32,552 nt of DNA. Origin: Anaerolineae bacterium. GTDB lineage: Bacteria; Chloroflexota; Anaerolineae; B4-G1; SLSP01. Positions within the stretch are counted from its first letter, which is position 1. Each line of letters starts with the position of its first letter. The position numbers and the translations under genes were made by a program. This document shows positions 1,740-26,978 of the stretch, piece by piece. The stretch lies in contig JALOOJ010000033.1 in NCBI GenBank assembly GCA_025454475.1, positions 1 to 32,552 of the forward strand. Reading direction: 5' to 3'. The notes beneath the pieces are model-generated. The model was not told the origin of the DNA. It saw nothing but the letters and a program-made list of their open reading frames with translations, and made no database searches.

Positions 1740-2555
1740 ATGGCCTCCGTGCCAACGCCATTCCAGCATCTGACCTATGCGCAAAGGGTTCTCAGCGTGC
1801 CGAGCCTTCCTGCATGGCTGGTAGATCGAATGGAAGCGGAATTCGGCGCATTCCTGCTCGGCAACACAGCAGGCGACGTGCAGTCGATAACAGGCCAGCC
1901 GAGGCTCGAGACGCATTTCTACTCCCTGTCGGATCTTCAACACAGCCCTGCGGCTGGCAGGCTGTTATCGGCGTATCCGGAGTTGTCGGACCCTGCATTG
2001 CTTTCCCCACCCCACGCTGCGTTTTTGAGCGGTTACCTGGTGCATCTGGTATGGGACCAGATATGGGCCGAGGATATCTTCATCCCGCTTTACCGCGATG
2101 CGGAGTTCTGGCCGGATAGGGTAGCACGCTACGTTCATCACAACGCGCTTCGCATTCATCTGGATCGTGAATCCTACGACAGTCTCGACCGCGCGCGGCT
2201 GGTTAGGCTCTTGGATGGCGTTACACCGGCACGGTGGCTGCCTTTCGTGGCTGATGTAGCTCTGGAGGACTGGCGCGATTGGCTCGTTGAGCAGCTCGTG
2301 GATCCCGACAGAGTGCAGACGGCGGCTGTGTTTTCCGAGCGAATGAAAACACCCGTATCCGCCCTGGAGGAAATCGTCGATGTGATGGCGCGTGGCGACT
2401 ACGCGGACGTGCCGGACTTGGCGCCGGCCCTGGCGCAGTACGAGGACCGGGGGTTGACCGAGAGCGGGCTCGTGCTGTTGCGCTATTGGGGCGTCGGGCC
2501 TAGACTTGTGCCGACCGCATCAGAGGTGGTGCACAGGGTGAGGGGGGAGTCATGA
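1740..2555 (+). CDS. Zinc-dependent phospholipase C-like protein (hypothetical)
   Basis: All-helical protein of about 271 aa with the pattern of the zinc-dependent phospholipase C superfamily as it occurs in Chloroflexi. An FLLGNTAGDVQ segment (about residues 38-48) is followed by a THFYSL segment with a conserved His. Then comes a GYLVHLVWDQIW segment whose HxxxD spacing fits metal binding. Substrate and activity are unknown and it may not be a phospholipase. No signal peptide is seen, so it is probably cytoplasmic. The start is uncertain: ATG 1740 is preferred, but TTG 1728 and GTG 1749 are in frame and none has a clear ribosome binding site. The last four bases overlap the galE start (ATGA), so the two are translationally coupled. 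Confidence 0.6.
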   Translation: MASVPTPFQHLTYAQRVLSVPSLPAWLVDRMEAEFGAFLLGNTAGDVQSITGQPRLETHFYSLSDLQHSPAAGRLLSAYPELSDPALLSPPHAAFLSGYLVHLVWDQIWAEDIFIPLYRDAEFWPDRVARYVHHNALRIHLDRESYDSLDRARLVRLLDGVTPARWLPFVADVALEDWRDWLVEQLVDPDRVQTAAVFSERMKTPVSALEEIVDVMARGDYADVPDLAPALAQYEDRGLTESGLVLLRYWGVGPRLVPTASEVVHRVRGES

Positions 2556-3550
2556 GGGTCTTTGTCGCGGGAGGCGCGGGCTACATCGGCAGTATCGTCA
2601 CGCAGCGGTTGCTTGATGCGGGCCATCAGGTGACCGTGTACGACAGTTTGGTGAAGGGGCATCGGCAGGCAGTCCCCCTCGAAGCGCAGTTTGTCCTCGG
2701 AGACATTCTTGACCGTCCAACGCTGGATGCCGCGCTTGGCGCTGAGCCCTACGATGCCATCATCCACTTTGCGGCCTTTATCGAGGCCGGACTGTCGATG
2801 CAGCAGCCGGGGACGTTCTTCAGGAATAACGTGGCGGGCAGTATGACGCTGATCGAGGCCGCCGCCGCCCACGGGGTGAAGAAGCTTGTCTTCTCCTCCA
2901 GTGCCGGCGTCTATGCTAGCAAGGACACTCCGCTGGTCGAGGATGATCCGATCGGACCCGTCAGCGTCTACGGACACACGAAGCGCATGATCGAGGAGAC
3001 ACTGGTGTGGTACCACCGGATCCACGGGCTGCGCTTTGCAGCCCTGCGCTACTTCAACGCCGCAGGCGCGACCCCGCCCGTGCGCGGCGAAGCCCATCAT
3101 CCCGAGACCCATCTGATCCCTTTGGTGCTGCAGGTGGCTCTTAACCAGCGTCCGCGCGTCCTGATCTTTGGTGACGACTATCCCACATCCGACGGCACGT
3201 GCATCCGGGACTACATCCACGTGCTAGACCTCTCGGCGGCGCACATCCTGGCCCTGAGAGCGCTCGACGAGTATCCGGTGCTGATCTGCAATCTCGGCAA
3301 CGGCGCGGGTTACTCGGTCAAGGAAGTGATCGATACCGCACGGCAGATCACGGGGCACAGCATTCCGGCGAAGGTGGTGGACCGCCGCCGCGGTGACGGT
3401 CCGGTGCTGGTGGCGGACGCGTCGCGGGCAAAGGCATTGCTGGGGTGGGTGCCGCAGATCCCTGAGCTGCGTGATATCATTGCCAGTTCGTGGGCGTGGC
3501 ATCAGGCGCATCCCAAAGGGTATGATTCTGACGAGCAAGGGGATAAGTAA
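2552..3550 (+). CDS. galE: UDP-glucose 4-epimerase
   Basis: Extended short-chain dehydrogenase/reductase of 332 aa that interconverts UDP-glucose and UDP-galactose, feeding galactose into glycan synthesis or catabolism. The N-terminal Rossmann fold has the GGAGYIG nucleotide motif (residues 7-13). A SSSAGVYAS segment (about 114-122) supplies the catalytic Ser. The catalytic Tyr-x-x-x-Lys is YGHTK (Y140, K144). RYFNAAGA and GTCIRDYIHVLDL are typical GalE signatures in the substrate domain. Length is normal for GalE. The start overlaps the stop of the preceding PLC-like gene by ATGA. Related sugar genes (rmlD, GT2) lie 4.5 kb away on the other strand. Confidence 0.93.
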   Translation: MRVFVAGGAGYIGSIVTQRLLDAGHQVTVYDSLVKGHRQAVPLEAQFVLGDILDRPTLDAALGAEPYDAIIHFAAFIEAGLSMQQPGTFFRNNVAGSMTLIEAAAAHGVKKLVFSSSAGVYASKDTPLVEDDPIGPVSVYGHTKRMIEETLVWYHRIHGLRFAALRYFNAAGATPPVRGEAHHPETHLIPLVLQVALNQRPRVLIFGDDYPTSDGTCIRDYIHVLDLSAAHILALRALDEYPVLICNLGNGAGYSVKEVIDTARQITGHSIPAKVVDRRRGDGPVLVADASRAKALLGWVPQIPELRDIIASSWAWHQAHPKGYDSDEQGDK

Positions 3551-5504: not shown

Positions 5505-5647
5505 GAGGCCCGGAGCGGGCAGGGATGCCCGCGGTCCATAGCAGTTGTGCAGATGCTCTTCGGTGTGGGCGGGTGACAGGCCGGAGCGGGCAAGGATGCC
5601 CGCGGTCCATGGTAGTTGGGCGGGTGTTCTTAGGTATGGGCGGGGGA
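5476..5647. repeat. 72-bp tandem direct repeat, two full copies and a degenerate third
   Basis: Copies begin with TGCAGATGCTCTTCGG at 5476 and 5548. A third, degenerate start (GTGTTCTTAGGTATGGGCGG) lies at about 5624-5643, so the period is 71-72 bp. Each full copy includes the last codons and stop of the peptidase frame plus a 7-bp hairpin, GCGGGCA / TGCCCGC (about 5515-5532 and 5587-5604). The third copy supplies the GGGGGA that acts as ribosome binding site of the next gene. Copies 1 and 2 differ at only a few positions, which suggests recent duplication. Confidence 0.85.
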
Positions 5648-5649
5648 AG

Positions 5650-6543
5650 ATGGTGCTGGCGACCTATGTGATTCGTGTGTTGCGCAGGCCTGGCCCGTGG
5701 GTACTGCGGTACCTACTTACAGCTGTGCCTGCGGCGACCCTGGGGCTGTTGATTGCGTCGCCGCTGGCGCCATGGTTTCGGTTGCCGTTGTTTACAGAAG
5801 CGTTGGACAGCCGATCGCTCGACGGCTTGCTTGAGGTCCTGATGGCTCGGTCCGATGCCAAGTCATCTGGCCCCTGGTTGCCGATAGCCCTGCTGCTGGT
5901 ACCCCTCGTGTGGGCCGGCATCCGGTTGGTTGGCATATGGCTCGAGGGCGGTATTTTGGTGACCTATGCGCTGCCGGCGGCGCCGTCGTGGCGTGCCTTC
6001 GTGCGTGTCTCGACTCGGACGTTTGGTAGGTTCTTGCTTCTGTCATTCCTCGGCGTCGGCATTGTAACCGTACTCATTGGTGGAACGGTAGGGTTGGCGC
6101 TCCTGGGACGCACGGTGCGGCGTCCTCTCGGAACCGCGATCGCCGTCGTGGGGCTGGGAGTCGCGTTCGGCGTGGGTGCGTGGGTGCGCCTGGCGCGCGC
6201 GTCGATTGTCGTGCGCGAGGACGGCAACGCACTTCTCGCGCTGCAGGAGGCGGGGCGCATTCTCGTGCGTAGACCGCTGCCGATCCTGGCGCTAGTGGTG
6301 GGTGCGCTGGCGTTGCGTGTGCTGCTCACCTGGCTGGCAGGCGCCTTGGGAGAGTGGGTGCCGCTGCGCGCGTGGCTGCTTACCTTGGGTACCCAGCAGC
6401 TGGTGCAGATCGCGCTCGTAGGCGTAGGCCTGGCGCGCCGGGCAGTCGAGGTGGGGCTGGTGCGACTGACACCGCGAGCGCCCAAGGCCTTTCCGGAGGC
6501 ATTGGGCGTTTCTCATATCAACACACCATCCTCGGATGCCTGA
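5650..6543 (+). CDS. Polytopic membrane protein of unknown function
   Basis: About 297 aa with roughly five to six hydrophobic segments: about residues 18-40, 75-97, 130-160, 165-180, 212-232 and 240-262. Short Arg-rich cytoplasmic-looking loops separate them. I recognise no catalytic motif. The layout resembles the uncharacterised integral membrane proteins (glycerophosphoryl-diester-phosphodiesterase-type membrane domain / DUF families) common in Gram-positive and Chloroflexi genomes, but I cannot assign a family. The start is chosen at ATG 5650; GTG 5653 is one codon on and sits at a better distance from GGGGGA (5642-5647). The open frame extends upstream to 5545, but only through the tandem repeat. 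The 3' end overlaps the ParB-like gene by 8 bp, so the two are probably co-transcribed. Confidence 0.65.
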   Translation: MVLATYVIRVLRRPGPWVLRYLLTAVPAATLGLLIASPLAPWFRLPLFTEALDSRSLDGLLEVLMARSDAKSSGPWLPIALLLVPLVWAGIRLVGIWLEGGILVTYALPAAPSWRAFVRVSTRTFGRFLLLSFLGVGIVTVLIGGTVGLALLGRTVRRPLGTAIAVVGLGVAFGVGAWVRLARASIVVREDGNALLALQEAGRILVRRPLPILALVVGALALRVLLTWLAGALGEWVPLRAWLLTLGTQQLVQIALVGVGLARRAVEVGLVRLTPRAPKAFPEALGVSHINTPSSDA

Positions 6544-6958
6544 CCCCTTCCGGCTTTCACTTGCGCAGATTCAGCCGAGTCAGCTCTACATCAACACGGC
6601 GAAGCTGGCGGACGTAGTTGCGTGGTGGGACCCGCCACAGCTTGGGGCGCTGCCGCCCATCCCCGTCAAGGCTCTTGACGGACGCATCGTTGCCACCGAC
6701 GGCCACACGCGAGCCTTTGCGGCCTATCGCAACGGCTTCCGCGAGGTGCCTGTGGTCTGGGACGAGGACGATCTCGACTGGGAGGCTTACCGGATCTGCG
6801 TCGACTGGTGTCTGGCCGAGGGGATCCACACGGTGATGGATTTGGAGGGGCGGCTGCTTGCTCCGAAGGACTATGACCTGTTGTGGCTGGGGCGGTGTGC
6901 TGCGATGCAGGATGACCTTGCGGCGCGGCGTGCTGGCTCCCCTACGGGAGCAGTGTGA
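6536..6958 (+). CDS. Small ParB/sulfiredoxin-fold protein
   Basis: 140-aa cytoplasmic protein. The segment LAQIQPSQLYINTAKL, then PIPVKALDG, then IVATDGHTRAFAAYRNGF and EVPVVW, matches the ParB/Srx N-terminal fold: a beta strand with a ‘pI.v' core followed by a DGHxR box like the ParB GxxRxxA box. There is no helix-turn-helix or dimer domain, so it is not a chromosome-partition ParB. The C-terminal half (DDLDWEAYRICVDWC…) is helical and Trp/Cys-rich and appears conserved in relatives annotated only as ParB-like. Start ATG 6536 overlaps the membrane-protein gene by 8 bp. The biochemical role is unknown; nucleotide binding is an inference from the fold. Confidence 0.6.
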   Translation: MPDPFRLSLAQIQPSQLYINTAKLADVVAWWDPPQLGALPPIPVKALDGRIVATDGHTRAFAAYRNGFREVPVVWDEDDLDWEAYRICVDWCLAEGIHTVMDLEGRLLAPKDYDLLWLGRCAAMQDDLAARRAGSPTGAV

Positions 6959-7006
6959 CCTGGTAGCCGTGCGAGGTCCTCGACAGAGGTACTGCAGTCT
7001 GCCTGG

Positions 7007-7072
7007 TCGCCGCACAGCGGAGGCGAACACGACAGTTCGCCGCACGGCGGAGGTGCGGTCTACGAGACCGCA
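7007..7072. terminator. Repeat-derived hairpins between convergent genes, probable bidirectional terminator
   Basis: Two near-identical 19-mers (starting TCGCCGCACAGCGG at 7007 and TCGCCGCACGGCGG at 7037, period 30, two mismatches) lie between the ParB-like gene and the oppositely oriented GT2 gene. Two hairpins are built from them and their flank: GGCGAAC / GTTCGCC (7022-7028 / 7035-7041, 6-nt loop) and TGCGGTCT / AGACCGCA (7054-7061 / 7065-7072, 3-nt loop). The second includes the GT2 stop codon. No T-run is present. Confidence 0.5.
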
Positions 7073-8061
7073 GGTGAAAGCCGGGTGTCGATGCGGATCT
7101 CGTAGGGCGGTTGCATCAGGCGTTCCAGGTACACCCGATCCACGATCCCCCGAGTGGCTTGGACGATGCGGCGTTTGCGTAGCATCCGCGGGATGCCCAG
7201 AATCCCTGCCGCGATGCCGCGGAGCGTGGCCCGTGCGGCGGGTCCGCGCCAGGCCTTTGCCGCGGCTATGACCAGGTCCCATTGCGCTGCCACGACCTCG
7301 CGCCGGTGGGTTCGCCAAAGATCGGCGGGGTAGTTCTTCACGAGTGTGTAAATGCGGTTGCGTCCGTCGTAGTAGGAGGCTGTGGCACCGCCGCCTGACG
7401 CCTTGAGCTTGTGGTAGACAACGGCGCTGGGCTCGAAGACGCAGCGCCAACCAGCGAGTTGCGCACGCCACGCAAGGTCCACGTCCTCGAAAGAGAAGAA
7501 GAAGTCCTCGTCGAGCAGCCCGATCTCGTCGAGCATCGTTGAGCGATAGGCCGCGCTGCCCCCGCAGGCGCTGAAGACGTATCCCCGGTGGTTGTACTGG
7601 CCCATGTCCTTGACCCACACGCCGCGGTTGTGAGCTAGCCCGTCGGGCGTCACATAGTCGCCGGCGGTGTGGAGCATGTCGCGGCGGTCGAAAAGCAGCA
7701 TCTTGGACGCGACCAGCCCCGCCTCGGGATGGTCGGCAAAGGTCTTGACGATGGCTGCGATCCACTCGGGGTGCGCCTCGGTGTCGTTGTTAAGGAGGAT
7801 ACGGATGGTACCCTTGGCAGCGCGCAGCCCGGCGTTGCAGCCGCCGGTGAAGCCCAAGTTGGTGGTCTGCGGCAGGACACGGACCTCCGGGTAGCTGCGA
7901 AGTATCGACAGGGACGCATCCTGTGAGGCGTTGTCGACGACGATTGTCTCGGTGACGGGATAGGTTTGGCGACGCAGGCTGTCAAGGCACACCGGGAGGT
8001 GCTGGGCGCCGTTCCAGTTGGGGATGATGACCGAGACGCGCGGCAGGTCGTCGTGGTTCAT
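7060..8061 (-). CDS. Family 2 glycosyltransferase (rhamnosyltransferase-like)
   Basis: GT-A fold inverting glycosyltransferase of about 333 aa. It probably transfers a sugar from a nucleotide donor to a surface polysaccharide or lipid acceptor at the inner face of the membrane. VSVIIPNWNG opens the Rossmann-like donor domain. VDNASQD and NLGFTGGCNAG follow, then LLNNDTEAHP, which gives the metal-binding DxD equivalent. Further on, GGSAAYRSTMLDEIGLLDEDFFFSFEDVD carries the ED acceptor-site motif. These fit the rhamnosyltransferase-like WcaE/Rfb subgroup. It lies directly behind rmlD, which makes dTDP-rhamnose, so rhamnose is the likely donor (inference). ATG 8061 is preferred; an in-frame TTG at 8109 overlapping the rmlD stop (TTGA) is an alternative with a GGTGA upstream. 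Confidence 0.85.
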   Translation of the reverse strand: MNHDDLPRVSVIIPNWNGAQHLPVCLDSLRRQTYPVTETIVVDNASQDASLSILRSYPEVRVLPQTTNLGFTGGCNAGLRAAKGTIRILLNNDTEAHPEWIAAIVKTFADHPEAGLVASKMLLFDRRDMLHTAGDYVTPDGLAHNRGVWVKDMGQYNHRGYVFSACGGSAAYRSTMLDEIGLLDEDFFFSFEDVDLAWRAQLAGWRCVFEPSAVVYHKLKASGGGATASYYDGRNRIYTLVKNYPADLWRTHRREVVAAQWDLVIAAAKAWRGPAARATLRGIAAGILGIPRMLRKRRIVQATRGIVDRVYLERLMQPPYEIRIDTRLSPAVS

Positions 8062-8105
8062 CGCCGGTTCGCCTGCGTCCGAGACCGTTGAGCTTTCCCG
8101 GAAGC

Positions 8106-8972
8106 TCAAAGCGCGTCACCGTCACGGCGACGGTATCCCGCGGCGTCGATGAACGCCGCGACGGCGTCCTGCCACGGGCGCAGGCGGATGCCCAGTGCCG
8201 CTGCTGCCGTGTTGGCGAGCGGGGCATAGGCTGGCGGCGTGCTGGCGCGCTGGAAGGCGTTTGACGCGATAGGGGTCAGGGAGACGGCACCGCGACCACT
8301 GCTGTCCAGGAGCAACTGGGCGAACTCGTAGCGCGACGCGGCGCCGTCGTTGACGAGGTGATAGATACCGTACGCATGAGTCTTGATCAGCTTGGCGATG
8401 GCTTCCGCTAGGTCGACGACATAGGTTGGGTTGCCGACCTCGTCGGTGACGACGCTGAGTGCGCCGTGCTCGTCTGCGAGCTCGAGAATACGATGGGGAA
8501 AGTTGCGTCCCTCGCCCGCGTAGAGCCAGGCTGTACGGACGACGTAGAACCGGGTCAGCAGGTGCTGAGCGTACCACTCGCCGGCGAGCTTGGAACGGCC
8601 ATAGGCATTGATCGGACGGCACGCGCCCCACTCGTGATAGGGTTCGGTGGCAGTGCCGTCGAAGACCTCGTTGGTGCTGACCTGTAGAAACTCGGCGCCG
8701 ACGCGGGCTGCAGCGAGCGCCAGATTCTGCGTCCCCATGCCGTTGACGCGATAGGCGAGCCCAGGGTCACGGGCGCAGCCGTCAACGTTTGTCATCGCCG
8801 CCGAGTTAAGGATCAGGTCGGGCCGAAACCGGGCTGCCAGCTCGAGCATTTCAGCGCGGTCGGTGATGTCGTGCGCCGGAAGGTCAATCCCCTCCACTGT
8901 GTGATCACGAGCCAGCAGCGGCATCAGGGTTCGGCCCAGTTGGCCTAGATGGCCCGCAAGCAGAATGCGCAT
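8106..8972 (-). CDS. rmlD: dTDP-4-dehydrorhamnose reductase
   Basis: 288-aa NADPH-dependent reductase that makes dTDP-L-rhamnose in the last step of the RmlABCD pathway. The N-terminus has MRILLAGHLGQLGRTL, the Rossmann glycine motif in its RmlD form. NSAAMTNVDGCARDP is the family signature, followed by STNEVFDG and the catalytic YGRSK (Tyr-x-x-x-Lys). TDEVGNPTYVVDLAEAI and a C-terminal LRPWQDAVAAFI are also typical. ATG 8972 is chosen because GAAGGAG lies 8 nt upstream and the Rossmann strand starts at once; the frame is open upstream but adds only unconserved residues. rmlA, rmlB and rmlC are not in this window. It heads a two-gene unit with the GT2 gene. Confidence 0.92.
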   Translation of the reverse strand: MRILLAGHLGQLGRTLMPLLARDHTVEGIDLPAHDITDRAEMLELAARFRPDLILNSAAMTNVDGCARDPGLAYRVNGMGTQNLALAAARVGAEFLQVSTNEVFDGTATEPYHEWGACRPINAYGRSKLAGEWYAQHLLTRFYVVRTAWLYAGEGRNFPHRILELADEHGALSVVTDEVGNPTYVVDLAEAIAKLIKTHAYGIYHLVNDGAASRYEFAQLLLDSSGRGAVSLTPIASNAFQRASTPPAYAPLANTAAAALGIRLRPWQDAVAAFIDAAGYRRRDGDAL

Positions 8973-9103
8973 GGGTAGCGCTCCTTCCCCAAGGGTGTTC
9001 GTATACATGCACTCTACCATGTGTCGCGGATTGCGCTATCGGTGGCGGAGAACCTTCCGGGTCGCTCAAAGCTGCTAAGAAGGTGAGGCGGAATGACTGC
9101 GTA

Positions 9104-9131
9104 TGGACAATCGGTTCGTTAGCCGTATACT
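9104..9131 (+). promoter_or_regulatory. Sigma-70-type promoter for the DUF362 gene
   Basis: TGGACA (9104-9109) and TATACT (9126-9131), each one base from consensus, with a 16-bp spacer. It sits in the 240-bp divergent gap between rmlD and the DUF362 gene, about 80 nt ahead of the DUF362 start. A 7-bp inverted repeat (ACTTCCG 9129-9135 / CGGAAGT 9148-9154) overlaps the -10 end and expected start point and could be an operator. Confidence 0.55.
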
Positions 9132-9153
9132 TCCGATCCGGGGAATCCGGAAG

Positions 9154-9174
9154 TCCGTGTCATCCGTGATTCAG
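9154..9174 (+). repeat. Dispersed 21-mer, copy upstream of the DUF362 gene
   Basis: TCCGTGTCATCCGTGATTCA(G). The reverse complement recurs with two mismatches at 10464-10484, just downstream of the same gene, so the gene is bracketed by an inverted pair about 1.3 kb apart. The core contains an internal direct repeat of ATCCGTG/TCCGTG. Confidence 0.65.
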
Positions 9175-9212
9175 ACAACTTCACCTTGCGCGTCTGCGCT
9201 GGAGACTAGCAT

Positions 9213-10448
<1,236 letters not shown>

Positions 10449-10463
10449 AGGGTAGGGCGATAT

Positions 10464-10484
10464 CTGAACCACGGATGGCACGGA
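10464..10484 (-). repeat. Dispersed 21-mer, inverted copy downstream of the DUF362 gene
   Basis: CTGAACCACGGATGGCACGG(A) matches the reverse complement of 9154-9174 at 19 of 21 positions. The remainder of the 135-bp gap to the next gene shows no clear promoter or hairpin. Confidence 0.65.
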
Positions 10485-10583
10485 TTCTGGGTTTGCGCGG
10501 ACTGCAGCCAAGTAGTGCCGCTCTCGACTGTGAAGTCGTGGGCATTTGCGCCTGATACCGCCCTCGGTCTAGGGGGATAGAGC

Positions 10584-11597
10584 GTGGTCCTGAGCGGATT
10601 GCTGATCTTGGTCTTGAGCTTCGTGCCGATGCTGCTGTATGCCGCGGTCTTGTGGTGGCTCGACCGCTATGAGAAGGAACCTCTTGCCCTGCTGTCGGTG
10701 GCCTTTCTTTGGGGGGCTGTGCCATCGATCATCCTGGCGTTGATCATGCAGATCGTGCTCGATGCGCCGCTGATGACGATCCAGGGCTCCAGCCAACTGA
10801 CCTATGAGCTGATTGGCGCTTCGGTCGTGGCCCCCCTGACGGAAGAAGGTGTCAAGGCACTCGCACTTATCATGCTGCTGTTGCTGTTCAGGCGTGAGAT
10901 CGACAGCCCATTGGACGGCCTCATCTACGGAGGGATGGTCGGGTTCGGGTTTGCATCAGTAGAGAACGTCTTCTACCTCTTCGGCGCGCTGACCGAGGGC
11001 GGGGTCGGGGATGTGCTGGGTCTGGCGTTTCTGCGCGCAGGTATCTTTGGGCTCAACCATGCAATGTACACGGGGTTTGCCGGTCTGGGGGTAGCGCTAT
11101 TCCTCGAGGTCAGGAACAAGGCGCTGCGATTCGTTCCGCTTGTGGTCGGGTTCCTGATGGCTCTTGGGGCGCACGCGCTGCACAACGCGTTGGCTACCTT
11201 TACTGGGATCAACGGCGCAGGCGTGTTGGTGGCGGCAGCGCTGGTCGATTGGGCGGGGGTAGCTGTTCTTCTCGCGGTTGCTGCGGGTACGTTCTTTGTA
11301 GAGCGGCGGCGAATCCTCTCCTATGCGGAGGCGCTGGTGCAGGGGCACGTCATCTCTGAAGGCGAGGTGGCGACGCTCAAGTCAACGTTTCAGCGGCGGC
11401 TTGCCCGTCTCGACTTGCTGCTGCGCGGCGACGTTCGCCGCTGGTGGGCGCTGCAGCGCTATCATCAGAAGGTAACGGAAGCGGCTTTTTCCTGGCATCG
11501 CCTGCGACAGGGGGATATGGCGGCGCAGCCGCGCCTTGCACGGTTGGAACGCGAGTACCGAGGGCTGCGGGTGGTGGCTATTCCCGGCCCAGAGTAG
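10584..11597 (+). CDS. PrsW-family intramembrane metalloprotease
   Basis: 337-aa membrane protein with about eight hydrophobic helices in the first 235 residues, then a charged cytoplasmic tail of about 100 residues. PrsW-type signatures are visible: EEGVK (E87, E88, K91) at the start of a helix, GLIYGGMVGFGFASVENVFY (E-x-x-x-Y type box near 127), FGLNHAMYTG (His near 160) and GAHALHN (His near 200). The two acidic residues and two histidines are the presumed zinc ligands of the CPBP/PrsW superfamily. In Bacillus PrsW performs site-1 cleavage of an anti-sigma factor; the substrate here is unknown. GTG start with AGGGGGAT about 6 nt upstream. The 3' end overlaps the convergent deoxyribosyltransferase-like gene by 20 bp. 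Confidence 0.82.
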   Translation: MVLSGLLILVLSFVPMLLYAAVLWWLDRYEKEPLALLSVAFLWGAVPSIILALIMQIVLDAPLMTIQGSSQLTYELIGASVVAPLTEEGVKALALIMLLLLFRREIDSPLDGLIYGGMVGFGFASVENVFYLFGALTEGGVGDVLGLAFLRAGIFGLNHAMYTGFAGLGVALFLEVRNKALRFVPLVVGFLMALGAHALHNALATFTGINGAGVLVAAALVDWAGVAVLLAVAAGTFFVERRRILSYAEALVQGHVISEGEVATLKSTFQRRLARLDLLLRGDVRRWWALQRYHQKVTEAAFSWHRLRQGDMAAQPRLARLEREYRGLRVVAIPGPE

Positions 11598-11979
11598 GCC
11601 CGAGCAGGCGCGGTAGATCGGTGGTCCGATCGTAGAGTAGCACTGCTGTCGAGATACCTCGCAGGGTCGCTGAGATGTCCGATCCGCGCTGGGCAATTGT
11701 CAGGATCTGCTTGCCTTGGGCATAGGCGTACCCGGCCTCGATTCCCACCCCCACGCCTTTCTCCGTCAGGTCGACGATGACCAGGTCGCACCCGTCGATC
11801 GCCAAGAAAGTGCGCACCATCAGCTCGTGAGAGGAGAGGTCGACCTCTCCCCAGCCCTCGACGTCGCGCGCGATGCACACTGTTTCAAACCCGCAAGCCT
11901 CCAGCGCCTGGGCAATGGCCTCGATCCGGGCACGGTTGCTGTTGTCCTCGTGGTACTTGATGGCGATGTAGGCGCGCAT
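11578..11979 (-). CDS. Nucleoside 2-deoxyribosyltransferase-like protein
   Basis: 133-aa single-domain cytoplasmic protein. MRAYIAIKYHED begins the fold, CDLVIVDLTEKGVGVGIEAGYAYAQGKQI gives the central strand, and GxExGYAxAxGK is the signature of the nucleoside 2-deoxyribosyltransferase superfamily (the conserved Glu is the usual nucleophile). DLTEKG and IEAGYAYAQGK are the decisive pieces. Its substrate is uncertain; relatives include DNPH1/RCL-like hydrolases and TIR-like NADases. ATG 11979 is preceded by GAGGAGA, a good ribosome binding site. It converges on and overlaps the PrsW gene by 20 bp, so transcription of either could affect the other. Confidence 0.72.
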   Translation of the reverse strand: MRAYIAIKYHEDNSNRARIEAIAQALEACGFETVCIARDVEGWGEVDLSSHELMVRTFLAIDGCDLVIVDLTEKGVGVGIEAGYAYAQGKQILTIAQRGSDISATLRGISTAVLLYDRTTDLPRLLGPTLGRE

Positions 11980-18983: not shown

Positions 18984-19105
18984 CTTACTGAACCAGATAT
19001 GTGTTTGTGCAGGCGCTTGCCTCAACGGAGCTTGCACCTCTTGTACCCGGTTCTCTGTGGATCCGTTCCTGGACGGGCAAGCACCAGTATCGGAGGGCTG
19101 AAGCA

Positions 19106-19480
19106 ATGGCGAACAGGTCTCGAAACGAGCGGATGATTGAACGACTGCGGGAGTTACAGGTGAGCAGCCCAGACGTTGAGGCGGCCGCGATCGTCAGTGT
19201 GGATGGGCTCCCGATTGCCACATCGCTTCCTCAGGGAGTCGAGGAGGACCGGGTCTCGGCGATGTCGGCCGCCATGCTATCGTTGGGTGAGCGCATCGCA
19301 GGCGAACTGGGGCGTGGTCTGCTGGATGAGGTCTATGTGCGGGGTGAGCGGGGCTATGTCATCTTGCGCGCTGTAGGTCAGGACGCGGTGCTGACTGTGC
19401 TAGCCCGACAGCAGGCCAAACTCGGTCTCCTTTTTCTGGACATGCGGCGCGCTGCTGAGGAGTTTGCGCGCATCCTCTAG
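19106..19480 (+). CDS. Roadblock/LC7 domain protein
   Basis: 124-aa single-domain cytoplasmic protein. MIERLRELQVSSPDVEAAAIVSVDGLPIATSLP, quoted in part as SPDVEAAAIVSVDGLPIA, is the first helix and strand of a roadblock/LC7 fold. ERIAGELGRGLLDEVYVRGERGYVILRAVG and a closing helix ARQQAKLGLLFLDMRRAAEEF complete it. In bacteria such proteins (for example MglB) act as GTPase-activating or scaffolding partners of small Ras-like GTPases, but no GTPase gene is seen here. ATG 19106 is chosen because GGAGGG lies 8 nt upstream; an upstream open frame to 19001 is leader sequence. It is the first gene of a three-gene operon with V4R and receiver proteins. Confidence 0.85.
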   Translation: MANRSRNERMIERLRELQVSSPDVEAAAIVSVDGLPIATSLPQGVEEDRVSAMSAAMLSLGERIAGELGRGLLDEVYVRGERGYVILRAVGQDAVLTVLARQQAKLGLLFLDMRRAAEEFARIL

Positions 19481-19503
19481 GCGCGGACCGAAGGAGGTTG
19501 TCA

Positions 19504-20142
19504 GTGGCTGACGCTCCGCAACCCAGCGGTTATCTTTACCCTCACCGTTTCGGCCTGATCCTCTTCGACGCACTCGAGGAGATCATGGGGCGCAATGGGC
19601 TCAATGCGATCCTCAATATGGCGCGTCTCGGGCAGTTTATCACCAATCCCCCGCCCGATACAATGGACAAAGGATTCGACTTCGCCTATATTTCGGCCCT
19701 GAACCGGGCACTCGAGGATATGTATGGACCTCGGGGTGGTCGCGGATTGCAGTTGCGATTGGGTCGGGTGTTGTTTGTGAGGGGGCTCTCCAACTTCGGC
19801 GCGTTGGTGGGCGCCAGTGATCTCGCTTTCAGGGTGCTGCCGTTGCAGTCAAAGGTGCGAGCGGGGCTTCCTGCCGTGGCAAAGGTGTTTGATTCCCTGA
19901 GTGATCAAACTTCCTTCGTGCGCGATCCCGGCGGTGAGCAGTACCACTATATCATTGAGCGCTGTTCTATGTGTTGGGGACGAAGCGTTGACCGGCCTGG
20001 CGGCTTTATCGCCGCGGGTATAATAGAGGAAGCATTGCGATGGATCAGCGGTGGGCGCACGTTCCGGGTGGATCAAACGTCCTGCATCGGTATGGGACAC
20101 AGCAATTGCACGTTCCAGGTGTACAAAGAACCGCTTGACTAA
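19504..20142 (+). CDS. V4R (4-vinyl reductase superfamily) domain protein
   Basis: About 212-aa protein made of one V4R-type domain. LYPHRFGLILFDALEEIMGRNGLNAIL starts the domain (LYPHRFGLILFDALEEI is diagnostic enough to place it). RGLQLRLGRVLFVRGL is the central segment. RCSMCWGR, then FIAAGIIEEALRWISGG, and a final SCIGMGHSNCTFQV close it, with the paired cysteines usual at the end of V4R domains. V4R domains are thought to bind small hydrophobic ligands or metals and occur as sensor modules in XylR-type regulators and in BchJ. Here it is probably the sensory part of the signalling operon (inference). GTG 19504 has AAGGAGG 6 nt upstream; TTG 19498 is in frame but too close to that site. 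Confidence 0.82.
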   Translation: MADAPQPSGYLYPHRFGLILFDALEEIMGRNGLNAILNMARLGQFITNPPPDTMDKGFDFAYISALNRALEDMYGPRGGRGLQLRLGRVLFVRGLSNFGALVGASDLAFRVLPLQSKVRAGLPAVAKVFDSLSDQTSFVRDPGGEQYHYIIERCSMCWGRSVDRPGGFIAAGIIEEALRWISGGRTFRVDQTSCIGMGHSNCTFQVYKEPLD

Positions 20143-20166
20143 GGCCGGCTCTCAGTACTTCAGAGA

Positions 20167-21102
20167 ATGAACGATCAGGTGACCATGGGACTATCGAATG
20201 AGTCGACGCAGGGCGCGGCGGCAGAGGACGATCGCGACGATCCGTGCCACATTCTCATTGTAGAGGACGAAGTGAGCACGGCGGAGATGCTGACGGCCTA
20301 TTTCTCATCGCTGGGGTACCAGGTGTCCCACGCCGGATGGGGTCAGGATGCCGTCAACTTGGCGACACGGATTCAGCCGGACTTGGTCGTGCTTGATATC
20401 CATCTCCCGGATATCGACGGCTATGAGGTCTGCATGCAGCTGCGCAACCAGCCAAGGACTGAGCACACGCCGGTGATCTTCCTGACGGAACGCCGGGAGC
20501 GGGTTGACCGGCTGACCGGCCTAGAACTGGGCGCCGTAGATTACATCACCAAGCCCTTTGATGTACAGGAGCTTCGTTTCCGTGTGCGCAACGCACTGCG
20601 CCGCAGCAGTCGCGAGACGTTGCTACACCCCATCACCGGACTTCCCACTACCTTGTTGATCGAGGAGGAGATCGCGCGCGTGGCGCGACACCCTGAGCTC
20701 GCGATGATTGGCGTCACCATCAGCGGGATGCCAGAGTTCAGCGATGCCTATGGGTTCCTGACTCACGACGATGTCTTGCGCGCTGTCGCACTCATTCTCA
20801 GGAATACCGCAACGGAGTCTCTAGGGGCCGAGCTCTTTGTCGGGCAGCTTGATTTGTACCAGTATGTCATCGTCACCCCGGCAGGGCAGGACACGTTCGT
20901 GGTGATCGGTCGACTCGATGAACGCCTCAACGAGGCTGCCTCCTTCTTCTACCCGCATCGAGATTGGGAACGTGGGACGCGTAGCGATGGCACGGAGATT
21001 CCCAGGCTCGGCTTTGATATTCGGCTGGTCGACGTTGCATCTTTCACGGCGCCCGGTGGGCTCAACGCGCTGCGACAAGCGCTGATGGGGCCGAGAGTCT
21101 AG
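20167..21102 (+). CDS. Response regulator: receiver domain plus degenerate GGDEF domain
   Basis: 311-aa protein. Residues 30-150 form a complete receiver: acidic pair in LIVEDE, phospho-acceptor D77 in VVLDIHLPDIDGYE, T107 in FLTER and K129 in ITKPFD. From about residue 155 a diguanylate-cyclase-like domain begins with the usual linker HPITGLPTTLLIEEEI and continues through DDVLRAVALILRN. The expected GGDEF loop reads VGQLDLYQYVIV instead, so the metal and catalytic residues are absent and c-di-GMP synthesis is not expected. It may bind nucleotide or a partner. Start ATG 20167 has only a weak ribosome binding site; ATG 20185 is an alternative. Third gene of the roadblock/V4R operon. Confidence 0.85.
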   Translation: MNDQVTMGLSNESTQGAAAEDDRDDPCHILIVEDEVSTAEMLTAYFSSLGYQVSHAGWGQDAVNLATRIQPDLVVLDIHLPDIDGYEVCMQLRNQPRTEHTPVIFLTERRERVDRLTGLELGAVDYITKPFDVQELRFRVRNALRRSSRETLLHPITGLPTTLLIEEEIARVARHPELAMIGVTISGMPEFSDAYGFLTHDDVLRAVALILRNTATESLGAELFVGQLDLYQYVIVTPAGQDTFVVIGRLDERLNEAASFFYPHRDWERGTRSDGTEIPRLGFDIRLVDVASFTAPGGLNALRQALMGPRV

Positions 21103-21130: not shown

Positions 21131-21162
21131 AACGGGGCCCGAGTACATCGTGGTCCCGTTTT
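21131..21162 (+). terminator. Rho-independent-type terminator after the signalling operon
   Basis: AACGGGGCC (21131-21139) pairs with GGTCCCGTT (21152-21160), nine pairs including one G-U, loop 12 nt, followed by a short T-run (21159-21162). It lies 28 nt after the response-regulator stop. It also argues against GTG 21150 as the start of the next gene. Confidence 0.6.
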
Positions 21163-21266: not shown

Positions 21267-24200
21267 ATGAACCCGGTTGCTGTTGAGAAGCCTATGCGAC
21301 GACGGTGGCGTGACTGGCTGTGCGTGGGGCTATTGTTGGTGTTTCCCCTGTTGCTCTTCGCGCCGGTCTCGCTAGGCCGCAAGACACTTCTCCCAGTGGA
21401 CGCGCTTTTCCTCTCGCAGCCCTACCGCGCTGCCGCGGCTGCTAACGGCGTCGATACAGCTCACAATCCTCTGCTGGCTGACCTGATCCTTGAGAACTAT
21501 GGCTGGAAGCAGTTCCTGGTGGATGCGGTTGAGGATCGGATCCTGCCGCTGTGGGATCCCCTACTGTTCTCAGGGCATCCTTTCCTGGCGAATGGGCAGC
21601 ACTCAGGCCTTTATCCTCTGACCTGGGTGTTCTTCTTGTTCCCGATTCCCCGCGCCTTCGGTGTCTTCACTGTCCTTCAGCTGGGGCTTGCCGGGGTCTG
21701 GATGTACACGCTGGGCCGGGTCCTCAAAGCCGGATCTCTGGGCGGTCTGGTCGCAGGGATCGTGTTTCAGTTCAGCGGCTTTATGGTCGTGTCCGTTGTG
21801 CACCCGATGATTATCGCAGGAGCATCGTGGCTGCCCCTGCTACTGGCACTGGTTGAGTGTACGATCAGCCGACGTCACTTCTGGGCACAGCAGCGGGCGA
21901 TGCTGCCGTGGGCGCTGCTGGGAGCTATTGCCCTCGGGCTGCAGTCACTGACGGGGCACCCTGAGACCACGTACTTCGTTCTGTTGGTGGTCGTCGCCTA
22001 TGCGGGCTGGCGCCTTCTACACCGACTCCTGACGTTCCCCAAGGCCATGTGGCGCTCAGAGGTGTTGAGCGCAGCCTTCGGTGTGGCGCTGATTCTGGGC
22101 CTGGGATTGATGCTAGGCGCTGCTCAGTTACTTCCCTTCTACGAGGTCGCCCGAGAGAGCTTCCGACAGGGCGCCGTCACGTTGCAGGAGGTCCTGGGTT
22201 GGGCCTACCCGATGCGCCGGCTCATCACGTTCCTGATCCCGAACTTCTTTGGCAATCCGACCCATCGCACCCTTATCGATGTCTTCAGCGGCGAGGTGCT
22301 CCAGGCGGGTGCAAGCGCGCTGGGAGACGTGGTATCGTCTTTCGATTGGGGGATCAAGAACTACGTTGAGGGGGGGGCCTATCTCGGCATCCTTCCATTG
22401 CTCCTCGCTGCGATCGCTGTGCTTAGCCCGGGTCTGACCTCCGGAGCCCAAGGGGGCACCCCCCCGCCTGACGTGCGTCGCCCGATTTGGGCAACGCTGG
22501 GGTGGTTGCGGCAGCCCTACACGCCGTTTTTTGTAGCACTCGCGGCCTTTTCCCTGGCTTGCATGTATGGCACCCCTGTCTATGCGTTGGTCTATGCTCT
22601 GCCCTTTATGGGCCAGTCACACTCCCCCTTTCGGTGGGTCTTTCCATTGACGGTGGCGGTTGCCGCCCTAGCAGGTCTCGGTGTGTCCGCTGTCTCGACC
22701 CTTACCCGGCGGCGGTTGACGGAGGGGGCGTTATCACCGGCGCCTGAATCGGTGTCAGGAGCCGCGGCCATGGCGCCGTCCGACATGATGGGGAAGCCAT
22801 CATGGCTGGTCAGGCTTGCCCTTCTTGACGGCCCCACGGACCTGACCACCATCATCGGAGCGATCGCGATTTGGGGTGGGCTCCTGGTGGGCGGCGGAGT
22901 GCTCGGCAGTCGCTTAGCGTTTGACTGGATCGAGCCTCTTGTCGAGCGAGCCTTCAGATCGCTGGCACTAGCAGCGCACGTCTTCCCCAGTGCCCGGGCC
23001 TTCTACTCCTATCTGGTGCCCTGGGTGCTGTGGTTCGGTGCGTTTCTACTGAGCAGCGGCATTGTCCTGCGTGTATCCGGATGTCGCATCTATCTGCCCA
23101 AGATGCTGGGGCGTCGGCCTGTGTGGGTGCTCCTCCTGGTGGTCGTCGTGTTGGTGGATCTCGTTGCGTTCGGGGTCGGGTTCAACCCGGAAGTCGATCC
23201 GGCGCTGCTGGACTACACGCCCCCGGTCGTTGACTTCCTGAGAACGGACTCCGGGCTGTGGCGTTTCTCCACATTCGATCCTGAGGGACGCAACACGATG
23301 CCCATGAATAGCGGGATGGTCTACGGATTCCAGGACGCGCGTGGCTATGACAGCTTGTTCTCGGCGCAGTATGCGCGCTATATGGGTTGGATCGAGTCCC
23401 AGGGGATGTTGCCTTACAACCGGATCGCCCCCTTCCGCAGCTATGCAAGCCTGGACAGTCCCCTCACCGACCTGCTCAACGTGAAGTATATCATCACCGA
23501 GCACGAGATCCCGCTGCCGAAGTTCCGCCAGGTGTATCAGGACGATGCTGTGCGCGTCTATGAGAATCTTGGGGTGACGCCGCGTGCCTTCACGTTACCC
23601 CTAGCGACGACGGTCGTGGTGCCGGATGCGGACTCTGTTGGGGCAGCGGTGCAGACGTATGACCCGCGATATTACGTGATCATTGAGTCAGGTCCTGGCG
23701 CGCGGACGGGGCCGAACGTCGAGACCGCGGCCGTAACGGGTGTCGCTCAGGCAGGCACGCCGATGTTGCAGCCCATCACCCACTATGGGCTCAACGAGGT
23801 CGTCATCGAGGTCAGCGTTGGGGGGCCTGCGTGGCTAGTGCTGGCTGATGCCTTCGCGCCAGGTTGGAAGGCCTTTGTTCGACCCCCAGGTGCGGGCGCC
23901 GATGCAGAGACGGAGGTAGGCATTCTTCGTATTGCCGGTAACTTCCGGGGGGTGCGGGTGGATGGCGCAGCCGTCATCAGGTTCAGATACACGCCGGACA
24001 GCGTCAAAGTAGGGGTTTTCACATCATTCCTCGGTGGCATGGTCATCCTATTTCTCGCGGTTGTCTGGGTCTGGCGCCTCACGTATCGCGACCGCGGTGA
24101 TCAGAGTACCGTCCAGCGACTGGCCAAGAACAGCATCGTGCCCATTCTCCTGACCTTGTTTAACCGCGGAGTGGATTTCGCGTTCGCGGCACTGATGCTG

Positions 24201-25622
24201 CGCATGCTGGGCCCGAGCAGCGCCGGCGACTACTACTATGCCACCAAGATCTTCGTCTGGTTCGATATCCTCACGAACTTTGGCCTGAACACTTATCTCA
24301 CGCGGGAGGTATCGCGAGACCCGCAGCACGCCCGACGGTACCTGACTCACACGACGTTGATCCGCCTCGGCCTGAGCATCGCCGCTGTCCCCATTCTGCT
24401 TGGTTTCCTTGGGGCTCGGCAGACGGTCATTGCGGGTATAACGGCGGCGGCTTCCCCGCAGGTGGTGCTGGCGATCGTGCTGTTGTATGTGGGCCTGGTG
24501 CCGAACTCGATCTCAACTGGGCTGACGGCACTCTTCTACGCCTATGAGAGAGCAGAATATCCGGCAGCGATCACGAGCGTGACCACCCTGCTTCGTGTCA
24601 CAGTCCAGACGCTGGCGTTGGTGGCTGGGTGGGGCATCGTTGGGCTCGCCGGCTCCTCGATCCTGATAAACATCGCGACGCTGGCGATTCTGGCGGTGCT
24701 GGCGTGGAAACTCTTCCCTGCGCTTCGTCGTCCACCGGAGGATGAGGCCGCAATCCGTTCACCTCAGACGCGCAGACTACGGCGTGACATGATTGGGGAG
24801 TCGTGGCCACTGATGCTCAATCATCTACTGGCGACGCTTTTCTTCACGGTCGACGTTTTCCTGATGGAGCCCATACTCGGCCCGGAGGCTGTGGGCTTCT
24901 ACAGCATTGGCGGCAAGCTTGTCGATGCGATGATGGTTGTCCCGTCGATGTTCACGATGGCGCTCTTCCCCATCCTATCGCGTCAGGTGCGGGGCGACCG
25001 CAACTCGACGGTACGCTTCTATCATCTGGGGGCGAAGATCCTGTTCCTGATCGCGCTACCGGTAGCGGTCGTCGCGACCATTCTGGCGCGTGAGATGGTG
25101 CTGCTGTTGGGGGGCGCAGCGTACGTACCTGGCAGCGTGCGGTCGCTCCAGATCATGGCTTGGCTGATGCCGGTGAGCTGGCTAAATGGGATCACGCAAT
25201 ACGTGCTCATTGCACTGGATCAGCAGCGCTACCTGACCCGAGCCTATGCCATGGCGTTTGGGTTCGCTCTGGCTGCGAACCTTGCCGCGCTGCCCCTTTT
25301 TGGTTACGAGGCGTCTGCGGTGGTCCACGTGCTTTCAGAACTGGTACTGCTCGTGCCATTTACCATAGGTGTGCGGCGGCATTTGGGCGACATCGGGTGG
25401 AGCGACATTGTCGTCAAGCCGGCGGTTGCCGCTCTCGTGTCAGGTGGATTCGGCATAGGTGCGGCCTGGCTTGTGAGCCCCGCACTAGGATTCGTCGTGA
25501 TGGGGGTGCTCTACCCGGTGCTCGTTCGGCGGCTCAAGGTGCTCTCATTGGAGGAGCGGGCGCTGTTGGCGCCGCTGCTGGGCCGATCTGGCGCCACGAA
25601 GGCTGAGGTAACTACGGTATAA
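21267..25622 (+). CDS. Giant membrane protein: YfhO-like domain fused to an oligosaccharide flippase
   Basis: About 1451 aa with two parts. Residues 1-930 are YfhO-like: FPLLLFAPVSLGRKTLLPVD, then LPLWDPLLFSGHPFLANGQH and ISGLYPL-type sequence, many helices, and from about 640 a large soluble segment (SGLWRFSTFDPEGRNTMPMN…YGFQDARGYDS) closed by one helix near 920. YfhO proteins are thought to be GT-C-type enzymes that glycosylate lipoteichoic acid or similar. Residues 950-1450 form a Wzx/MurJ-like flippase (NSIVPILLTLFNRGVDFAF, GPSSAGDYYYATKIFVWFD, GPEAVGFYSIGGKLVDAM) with 12-14 helices. The fusion suggests that one polypeptide modifies and flips a lipid-linked sugar (inference). ATG 21267 or ATG 21294 is likelier than GTG 21150, which lies inside a terminator. 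The reading frame shows no break at the junction. Confidence 0.82.
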   Translation: MNPVAVEKPMRRRWRDWLCVGLLLVFPLLLFAPVSLGRKTLLPVDALFLSQPYRAAAAANGVDTAHNPLLADLILENYGWKQFLVDAVEDRILPLWDPLLFSGHPFLANGQHSGLYPLTWVFFLFPIPRAFGVFTVLQLGLAGVWMYTLGRVLKAGSLGGLVAGIVFQFSGFMVVSVVHPMIIAGASWLPLLLALVECTISRRHFWAQQRAMLPWALLGAIALGLQSLTGHPETTYFVLLVVVAYAGWRLLHRLLTFPKAMWRSEVLSAAFGVALILGLGLMLGAAQLLPFYEVARESFRQGAVTLQEVLGWAYPMRRLITFLIPNFFGNPTHRTLIDVFSGEVLQAGASALGDVVSSFDWGIKNYVEGGAYLGILPLLLAAIAVLSPGLTSGAQGGTPPPDVRRPIWATLGWLRQPYTPFFVALAAFSLACMYGTPVYALVYALPFMGQSHSPFRWVFPLTVAVAALAGLGVSAVSTLTRRRLTEGALSPAPESVSGAAAMAPSDMMGKPSWLVRLALLDGPTDLTTIIGAIAIWGGLLVGGGVLGSRLAFDWIEPLVERAFRSLALAAHVFPSARAFYSYLVPWVLWFGAFLLSSGIVLRVSGCRIYLPKMLGRRPVWVLLLVVVVLVDLVAFGVGFNPEVDPALLDYTPPVVDFLRTDSGLWRFSTFDPEGRNTMPMNSGMVYGFQDARGYDSLFSAQYARYMGWIESQGMLPYNRIAPFRSYASLDSPLTDLLNVKYIITEHEIPLPKFRQVYQDDAVRVYENLGVTPRAFTLPLATTVVVPDADSVGAAVQTYDPRYYVIIESGPGARTGPNVETAAVTGVAQAGTPMLQPITHYGLNEVVIEVSVGGPAWLVLADAFAPGWKAFVRPPGAGADAETEVGILRIAGNFRGVRVDGAAVIRFRYTPDSVKVGVFTSFLGGMVILFLAVVWVWRLTYRDRGDQSTVQRLAKNSIVPILLTLFNRGVDFAFAALMLRMLGPSSAGDYYYATKIFVWFDILTNFGLNTYLTREVSRDPQHARRYLTHTTLIRLGLSIAAVPILLGFLGARQTVIAGITAAASPQVVLAIVLLYVGLVPNSISTGLTALFYAYERAEYPAAITSVTTLLRVTVQTLALVAGWGIVGLAGSSILINIATLAILAVLAWKLFPALRRPPEDEAAIRSPQTRRLRRDMIGESWPLMLNHLLATLFFTVDVFLMEPILGPEAVGFYSIGGKLVDAMMVVPSMFTMALFPILSRQVRGDRNSTVRFYHLGAKILFLIALPVAVVATILAREMVLLLGGAAYVPGSVRSLQIMAWLMPVSWLNGITQYVLIALDQQRYLTRAYAMAFGFALAANLAALPLFGYEASAVVHVLSELVLLVPFTIGVRRHLGDIGWSDIVVKPAVAALVSGGFGIGAAWLVSPALGFVVMGVLYPVLVRRLKVLSLEERALLAPLLGRSGATKAEVTTV

Positions 25623-25766: not shown

Positions 25767-26978
25767 ATGGAAACCACGCAGTTGGAGCAGATGATCCGTT
25801 GGCTGGACGAGGAGCGTAAGCGCGATAGGGCTCAGATTGCCGTGCTACAGGAGCGCCTGGAGCAGCAATCCCAGCAGATGCAGACCCAGGCCACAGAGAT
25901 CGAGCACTTGCGTCAGGACCTGGTCATCGTGGCGACCGATATCCGCCGCACGGACGCCTATCCAGGTATGGTTGAGACCACGCAGCGCGATCTCACCAGC
26001 GCCATCGAGGCTATCAAGGTCCAGACCCGCCGTGAGAAGCTCGAGTCGGATCAATCCCGCCGAGGTGACATTGAGCTGCTCAATGGCATGATCGCCGATC
26101 TGGACAAGCGCATCCGTCCGATGGTGCGGTACGAGGAGCAGCTAGAGGCGCGTGCTGCGGGCGAGCAACGTCTGCAGGGACAGGTGCAGACGGTCTCTAA
26201 CACGTTGGCCGACCTGTCTAAGCGCACGGAGGATCGGCTACAGTCGATCGTTTACCTCGAGGAGCAGCGCCGGGCAGACACCCGCCGCATCAGCGAGGTC
26301 GAGGGCGAACTGCCTGGGCTGCGCAAGCGTCTGGATGAGTCGGTTGCCCGATTCGCGCGTCTGGAGGATAGCATCCGCAAGTTGCCATCCCGTATCGATG
26401 AGGCGATCGAGATCGCCAAGTCCTACGATCCACGGATTGAGGCGTTGCGCGTGGCCGACTTCCAGCGCGAGCAGCGAGTCAAGAAGTATATGGAGCAGGC
26501 CGAATTGGTCGAAGGCGAGGTTCAGCGGTTGGTCGAGCAAACGCAGAAGTACGCGCTACTTTACAACCAGAACAAGCAGGCGCTCGATAGTCTTGTTGCG
26601 TTTGAGGAGCGCCTCGAGAAGCGCCAGAACGAGATCTCGGAGATGCAGCGCTTGACTGAGGAGCGCCTGTTACGCCAATGGGAGGAATGGCAGACGGCGT
26701 TTGCGCGCGACTGGCAGAAGCGCATGGTTACTGAGGAGGATCGTTGGCGCCGGCAGGATCTGGCGAACCAGAGGGCCATGGAGCTCTTGGCAGAATCGGA
26801 TCAACAGGCAGCAATGCAATTTCAGGAGATCCTGGCCCTGTGGGAGGAATTGCTTGCGAGCGTTGAACGGTGGAATCGCGCGCTTGCCGATGCAGTCAAG
26901 CCAGGGCAGGCTACGCCGGCAGAGCACCTGAAGGAGCTTCGTCGTTACGCAGACGAGAAACGCAAGCAGCCGTTGTAG
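25767..26978 (+). CDS. Long coiled-coil protein of unknown function
   Basis: 403 aa, almost entirely charged and helical with heptad-like spacing. It is rich in Gln, Glu, Arg and Leu and has almost no Cys or Gly. Blocks such as LQERLEQQSQQMQTQATEIE (about 28-47), VEGELPGLRKRLDESVARFA (about 177-196) and LVAFEERLEKRQNEISEMQR (about 273-292) suggest several coiled-coil segments separated by short hinges. There is no signal peptide, transmembrane helix or ATPase motif, so it is a cytoplasmic structural or scaffold candidate. I do not recognise the family. ATG 25767 has GGAGGA 10 nt upstream. It lies 144 bp behind the YfhO-flippase gene on the same strand, so it may be co-transcribed. The hairpin at 26998-27039 follows its stop. 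Confidence 0.75.
   Translation: METTQLEQMIRWLDEERKRDRAQIAVLQERLEQQSQQMQTQATEIEHLRQDLVIVATDIRRTDAYPGMVETTQRDLTSAIEAIKVQTRREKLESDQSRRGDIELLNGMIADLDKRIRPMVRYEEQLEARAAGEQRLQGQVQTVSNTLADLSKRTEDRLQSIVYLEEQRRADTRRISEVEGELPGLRKRLDESVARFARLEDSIRKLPSRIDEAIEIAKSYDPRIEALRVADFQREQRVKKYMEQAELVEGEVQRLVEQTQKYALLYNQNKQALDSLVAFEERLEKRQNEISEMQRLTEERLLRQWEEWQTAFARDWQKRMVTEEDRWRRQDLANQRAMELLAESDQQAAMQFQEILALWEELLASVERWNRALADAVKPGQATPAEHLKELRRYADEKRKQPL

Follow-up and report, generated by a model that had tools for sequence, protein, structure and literature searches.

The window analyzed here, a 32,552-nucleotide stretch of DNA from an Anaerolineae bacterium (contig JALOOJ010000033.1), carries a gene for a membrane protein of 1451 amino acids (aa) that, by its sequence and structure models, is a YfhO-family half with the GT-C glycosyltransferase fold followed by a flippase half of the Wzx/MurJ type. 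We consider it likely, from sequence, models, and analogy, that this fusion belongs to a three-component extracytoplasmic glycosylation system and unites its flippase and its transferase in one chain. The candidate third component is a GT2 glycosyltransferase resembling lipid-phosphate-sugar synthases, whose gene directly precedes the fusion in many relatives.

A single open frame shared by many Chloroflexota

The fusion gene runs on the plus strand, without an internal stop, from an ATG at position 21267, the start that agrees with those of the relatives' fusions, to position 25622; an alternative in-frame start, a GTG, lies at position 21150. The initial annotation had read a YfhO-like and a flippase half into one polypeptide, and the open frame, Pfam, and the structure models bore this out.

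We searched 60 relatives along with 300 Chloroflexota genomes and also scanned the contigs of named genomes; sampling outside Chloroflexota consisted of one pattern scan of genome contigs. In 58 genomes, which represent 20 family-level groups, a single open frame spans both halves, the protein measuring about 1340-1560 aa where the gene is complete, so the domain order that had been suggested for a search across Chloroflexota is indeed widespread there. The named genomes carrying the fusion are Chloroflexota metagenome assemblies (Anaerolineae, Thermoflexales, and Ardenticatenia). Groups f16 and f18 of the same class gave no match at E ≤ 1e-60, and the fusion had no match among plasmid records.

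The possibility that an assembly error or a frameshift has joined two genes finds no positive sign beyond the fact that the named relatives are metagenome assemblies. Against it, the identical joint is shared by all 58 genomes, including that of G056, which is a single contig, and at positions 24086-24108 of the window the joint is clean in the DNA. The split copies encountered are explained otherwise: those in G032 and G038 are only apparent and sit at contig ends, and that in G003 stems from a frameshift around residue 805 rather than at the joint. Because one open frame crosses the joint in so many genomes and family-level groups, the fusion is neither chance nor artefact, and the probability that we leave to an artefact is negligible. 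The same 58 single-frame genomes exclude the idea that relatives are always two separate proteins.

The N-terminal half has a GT-C fold

The three Pfam families named in the initial annotation fared differently: Polysacc_synt was found, Polysacc_synt_C was absent from the matches, and YfhO (PF09586) appeared in the window's protein only below threshold, over residues 662-776 (24.4 bits versus a cutoff of 28.5). This low score is attributable to sequence divergence, since all 43 aligned N-terminal halves of the family match YfhO at E ≤ 1e-3 (best E value, 2e-32).

Sequence profiles of either half found no match in the PDB, and only fold comparisons yielded solved relatives. For these we used two AlphaFold2 models, covering residues 1-960 and 640-1451, each built from an alignment of 43 homologues. 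The first reached a predicted local distance difference test score (pLDDT) of 90.4 and a predicted template modeling score (pTM) of 0.92. Foldseek placed AftD (E value, 3e-7) and ArnT with bound undecaprenyl phosphate (E value, 6e-5) at the top of its matches to the N-terminal half, and VIA-align gave Z scores of 15-23 with STT3, AftD, PMT, AftA, and ArnT. The fold thus matches solved GT-C enzymes over the membrane core. The model also has the features of YfhO proteins, namely, many membrane helices and a large outer domain (about residues 640-908) preceding a terminal helix (residues 911-940), which is the layout published for Bacillus subtilis YfhO (PMC5836110).

Ten residues of this half are invariant in all 46 fusions compared: D45, N67, D72, N77, H231, E233, R300, E368, Q450, and R456. 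D45 and D72 lie in the first extracytoplasmic loop and are candidate catalytic acids. An aspartate at the position of D72 is also present in stand-alone YfhO paralogs.

The flippase half and the joint

In the C-terminal half, Pfam detects Polysacc_synt (PF01943) over residues 952-1239 with an E value of 2.3e-29, as well as Polysacc_synt_3. The second model (pLDDT, 90.0; pTM, 0.82) matches MurJ with a Z score of 29.9 and WzxE with one of 29.8, and both Pfam and fold therefore place this half among the MOP flippases. R979, R1013, R1033, N1307, and N1338 are invariant in 46/46 fusions.

A structure prediction of the joint, which the initial annotation had proposed as a check, yields a helix, a short linker of about eight residues, and another helix, with good models on both sides. 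The flanking residues are conserved (W936 in 43/46, R951 in 44/46, and N955 in 46/46 fusions). MOP flippases begin on the inner side of the membrane and the terminal YfhO helix is predicted to run from outside to inside, so the join would be topologically sound.

One could argue that only one half is active and that the other serves as a membrane anchor or assembly scaffold. Stand-alone flippases do exist, and in the 884-aa fusion L085 (positions 6930-9584, genome G307) the YfhO half is reduced to some 370 aa and has lost the H231/E233 motif, next to an intact flippase. However, mean conservation is about equal in the two halves of full-length fusions, and each retains invariant polar or charged residues. 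Given these residues, neither half looks decayed and both appear to be selected, which makes a single active half very improbable.

A GT2 partner gene points to a probable lipid-phosphate-sugar donor

A GT2 protein of about 240-290 aa is encoded immediately ahead of the fusion in many relatives. Counting one locus per genome, 51 genomes had readable upstream DNA, and in 24 of them, from 9 family-level groups, some within and some outside the window's class, the GT2 gene lies directly upstream in the same orientation, at a distance of -49 to +52 bp from the fusion start and often overlapping it. The best solved match of the linked GT2 is dolichol monophosphate mannose synthase (5mlz; E value, 1.6e-31). 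In the GT2 tree most linked copies group together, along with unlinked copies of G021, G022, G329, G056, and G299. The family-level group of G021 also has a separate glycosylation set, in which a stand-alone YfhO gene is followed by two GT2 genes, the second of them DPM1-like (L111, contig C26, positions 5628-9815).

With a flippase and a GT-C enzyme in one protein and a GT2 often as operon partner, we read the fusion as a donor flippase plus transferase. As a first step, judging by homology and by the upstream position in relatives, a cytoplasmic DPM1-type GT2 would load one sugar onto polyprenyl phosphate. The C-terminal flippase half, to go by its fold, would then turn the lipid-phosphate-sugar to the outer face, where the N-terminal half, given its fold and family, would pass the sugar on to an acceptor, be it a surface polymer, a glycolipid, or a protein. 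The invariant acids of the first loop may serve this transfer, the large outer domain may hold the acceptor, and the fusion itself would keep export and use of the donor in one complex.

The initial annotation had instead proposed that the fusion both decorates and translocates one and the same lipid-linked glycan. Its idea of a fusion that couples translocation to glycosyl transfer is supported, the fusion is conserved across Chloroflexota, and both halves are intact and fused as it supposed; the single shared glycan fits less well, because the DPM1-like GT2 upstream in 24/51 genomes points to a donor route in which the flippase would move a lipid-phosphate monosaccharide and the GT-C half would serve a separate acceptor. 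Moreover, a GT-C enzyme needs its donor outside, which makes a donor exporter the simpler role for the flippase half. We therefore regard decoration and translocation of one glycan as improbable.

How far do the data place the fusion in a three-component system? Family and fold put flippase and GT-C enzyme in one chain, and homology puts the synthase beside it in 24/51 genomes for the family as a whole. Several observations weigh against this assignment. No such GT2 gene lies directly upstream at the window's own locus or in others of its genus, and the linked type was found neither in the window's genome (95.7% complete) nor in assemblies of its genus; only a paralogue of the linked GT2, at 51% identity and located beside other glycan genes, was found in that genome. 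The closest solved flippases, MurJ and WzxE, are transporters of pyrophosphate-linked glycans; the GT-C fold is common to oligosaccharyltransferases that use such glycans; and stand-alone relatives of the flippase half in group f65 have as neighbors a GT4 gene and one resembling O-antigen ligases/polymerases, a Wzx-like setting. Since linkage to the GT2 is usual but not required, its absence at the window's locus lowers the likelihood of three-component membership without excluding it.

In the chief competing explanation, the substrate of the flippase half is a pyrophosphate-linked repeat unit, as for Wzx, and once outside this same unit is acted upon by the GT-C half as an oligosaccharyltransferase, ligase, or polymerase. 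It owes this rank to MurJ and WzxE being the nearest solved flippases and to the O-antigen-ligase-like (Wzy_C-type) gene beside some stand-alone relatives, and the top GT-C matches include the oligosaccharyltransferase STT3. MurJ and WzxE move pyrophosphate-linked glycans, not lipid-phosphate monosaccharides. Yet the conserved partner of the fusion belongs to the DPM1-type GT2 enzymes, which produce lipid-monophosphate sugars, and the identified recurring neighbor families of the fusion include no polymerase or initiating transferase. Furthermore, the substrate of YfhO proteins whose role is known is presumed to be a C55-phosphate (C55-P)-sugar (PMC5836110). Transport of a repeat unit thus appears unlikely, and we retain donor export coupled to transfer as the preferred interpretation.

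A probable early fusion with repeated losses

The close relatives of the flippase half in other groups of the phylum are stand-alone proteins. Most of them share residues such as K1217, N1307, Y1312, and Q1320 with the fusions, whereas three of four more distant flippases compared lack such residues. Some of these relatives (L075-L077) lie beside NAD epimerase-like, Wzy_C-type, and GT4 genes, that is, in a polysaccharide locus. The stand-alone flippases do not look like halves of split genes with YfhO alongside, as tblastn with the N-terminal half found no adjacent YfhO in their loci; the only YfhO in the vicinity of one (L086) is distant, about 6 kb off and on the opposite strand.

In 200 bootstrap trees of the flippase, the fused rows never formed one clade, and the fused or partly fused rows L073 and L085 fell near the base, weakly placed. 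A profile of the joint matched the N-terminal helix of five stand-alone flippases (L080, L081, L084, L092, and L105) with 20-31 bits, compared with maxima of 8.5 bits for shuffled controls and 6.8 bits for other windows. The match was marginal in L082 and not significant in the remaining stand-alone flippases, so a scar of the YfhO helix is rejected as a general feature of these proteins. A terminal helix of this kind also closes the stand-alone YfhO proteins. Together, the helix scars and the lack of a single fused clade favor one early fusion followed by several losses rather than repeated gains: the fusion probably dates far back in Chloroflexota, and the stand-alone flippases would be what its losses left behind, although the deep branches are weak. 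The shortened L085 looks, from its sequence, like an intermediate in the loss of the transferase.

It is tempting to speculate further that the single-chain protein channels the lipid-phosphate sugar from its flippase to the GT-C active site within one protein or oligomer, and that this arrangement is ancestral to much of Chloroflexota and was repeatedly reduced to a stand-alone flippase, in some cases keeping the YfhO helix. We put this forward tentatively, at somewhat short of even chances.

Two further flippase arrangements came to light. In L088, a stand-alone flippase of the subfamily (positions 7812-9389) overlaps the start of a PMT-type GT-C gene (positions 9386-11686), another flippase-transferase pairing. 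The window's own genome encodes, on the minus strand of contig C302 (L145, positions 11-2596), an 861-aa flippase whose first ~250 residues look by eye like a secreted domain; inspected in the same way, this extra sequence shows no sign of a YfhO half in translation, and the protein would represent a different flippase fusion.

Genomic neighborhood

The fusion lies between three genes for Roadblock/LC7, V4R, and response-regulator proteins and a gene for a 403-aa protein (Table 1), an order that most of the window's relatives retain where their flanks can be read. The upstream trio also precedes the fusion in another family-level group (L143). These neighbors possibly form a regulatory module, its link to the fusion being suggested by synteny.

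The initial annotation had suggested, from an epimerase gene, rmlD, and a GT2 gene in the window, that the surface glycan may contain galactose and rhamnose. This proposal is not supported: the three genes are distant from the fusion, unrelated genes intervene, two of the three (rmlD and the GT2 gene) are on the opposite strand, and the conserved neighbors are other genes. Among solved structures, this GT2 best matches chondroitin synthase and further GT2 enzymes rather than synthases of the DPM1 type.

Table 1. Location of the fusion gene, its parts, and other genes in the window
Feature	Position	Strand	Basis or remark
Fusion gene: GT-C (YfhO-family) half plus Wzx/MurJ-type flippase half	21267..25622	+	Single frame in 58 genomes
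GT-C half, transmembrane core (residues 1-639) including first extracytoplasmic loop	21267..23183	+	AlphaFold2 model; GT-C fold matches
Candidate catalytic acids in the first loop, D45 (21399-21401) and D72 (21480-21482)	21399..21482	+	Invariant in 46/46 fusions
Large extracytoplasmic domain between last two membrane helices of GT-C half (residues 640-908)	23184..23990	+	Models
Terminal membrane helix of YfhO half (residues 911-940)	23997..24086	+	Models; common to stand-alone YfhO proteins
Joint: short linker, predicted cytoplasmic (residues 941-947)	24087..24107	+	Models; DNA inspection; conserved flanks
MOP-superfamily flippase half (residues 948-1451)	24108..25619	+	PF01943; fold of MurJ and WzxE in the model
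Roadblock/LC7, V4R, and response-regulator genes, directly upstream of fusion	19001..21102	+	Pfam; synteny in the window's relatives
403-aa gene, directly downstream of fusion; no Pfam match, weak SMC-like NCBIfam matches	25767..26978	+	Synteny
Epimerase gene	2552-3550		12-19 kb range from fusion
GT2 gene of the window	7060-8109	minus	12-19 kb range from fusion
rmlD	8106-9020	minus	12-19 kb range from fusion

Comparison with known glycosylation systems

No description of a YfhO-flippase fusion was found in the titles and abstracts of the open-access literature, subscription papers and protein-architecture databases being outside the scope of this search; for surface glycosylation in Chloroflexota, a search of the open-access literature yielded unrelated work only. 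Within that literature, a flippase-transferase fusion with the donor synthase next door is apparently an undescribed form of a known glycosylation system, and it offers a lead on surface glycosylation in this phylum. In many three-component systems the flippase has been assigned indirectly; it has been called putative or predicted (PMC8035078, PMC11127046), and according to one of these two papers there is no direct evidence of flipping for the transporters considered there. When flippase and transferase are naturally fused and the donor synthase adjoins them, sequence ties all three parts together. A Wzx-type protein thereby becomes a strong candidate exporter of a lipid-phosphate monosaccharide, and flipping and transfer could be examined jointly in a single protein. 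The catalytic residues of YfhO were reported to be hard to predict (PMC5836110), and the invariant acids of the first loop are now supplied for this family.

The individual parts have counterparts elsewhere. MurJ and WzxE share the fold of the C-terminal half (Z scores of about 30) but are stand-alone proteins with 9-16% identity in structural alignments. Extracytoplasmic glycosylation systems made up of lipid-phosphate-sugar synthase, flippase, and GT-C transferase are known from B. subtilis (CsbB, GtcA, and YfhO), Streptococcus pyogenes (GacI, GacK, and GacL), and Citrobacter (PMC5836110, PMC8035078, PMC11127046). In Citrobacter, ORF15, ORF14, and ORF12 (GT136) likewise comprise a lipid-sugar synthase, a separate transporter, and a GT-C enzyme acting outside the membrane; unlike in the fusion, ORF14 has four membrane helices and is EmrE/ArnE-like, not Wzx, and no fusion is described (PMC11127046). 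The S. pyogenes system resembles the present one in being multicomponent and in its flippase, the Wzx-type GacK being proposed to supply the GT-C enzyme, but its proteins are separate and GacL is of the PMT-2 type, not YfhO (PMC8035078). Lipoteichoic acid glycosylation in B. subtilis has the same three functions and, like many loci described here, a GT2 gene beside the YfhO gene, csbB-yfhO (PMC5836110, PMC7389260, PMC8035078). Its flippase, however, is the small GtrA-type GtcA, encoded separately and unlinked (PMC5836110, PMC8035078), whereas here a Wzx/MurJ-type flippase is fused to the YfhO half itself.

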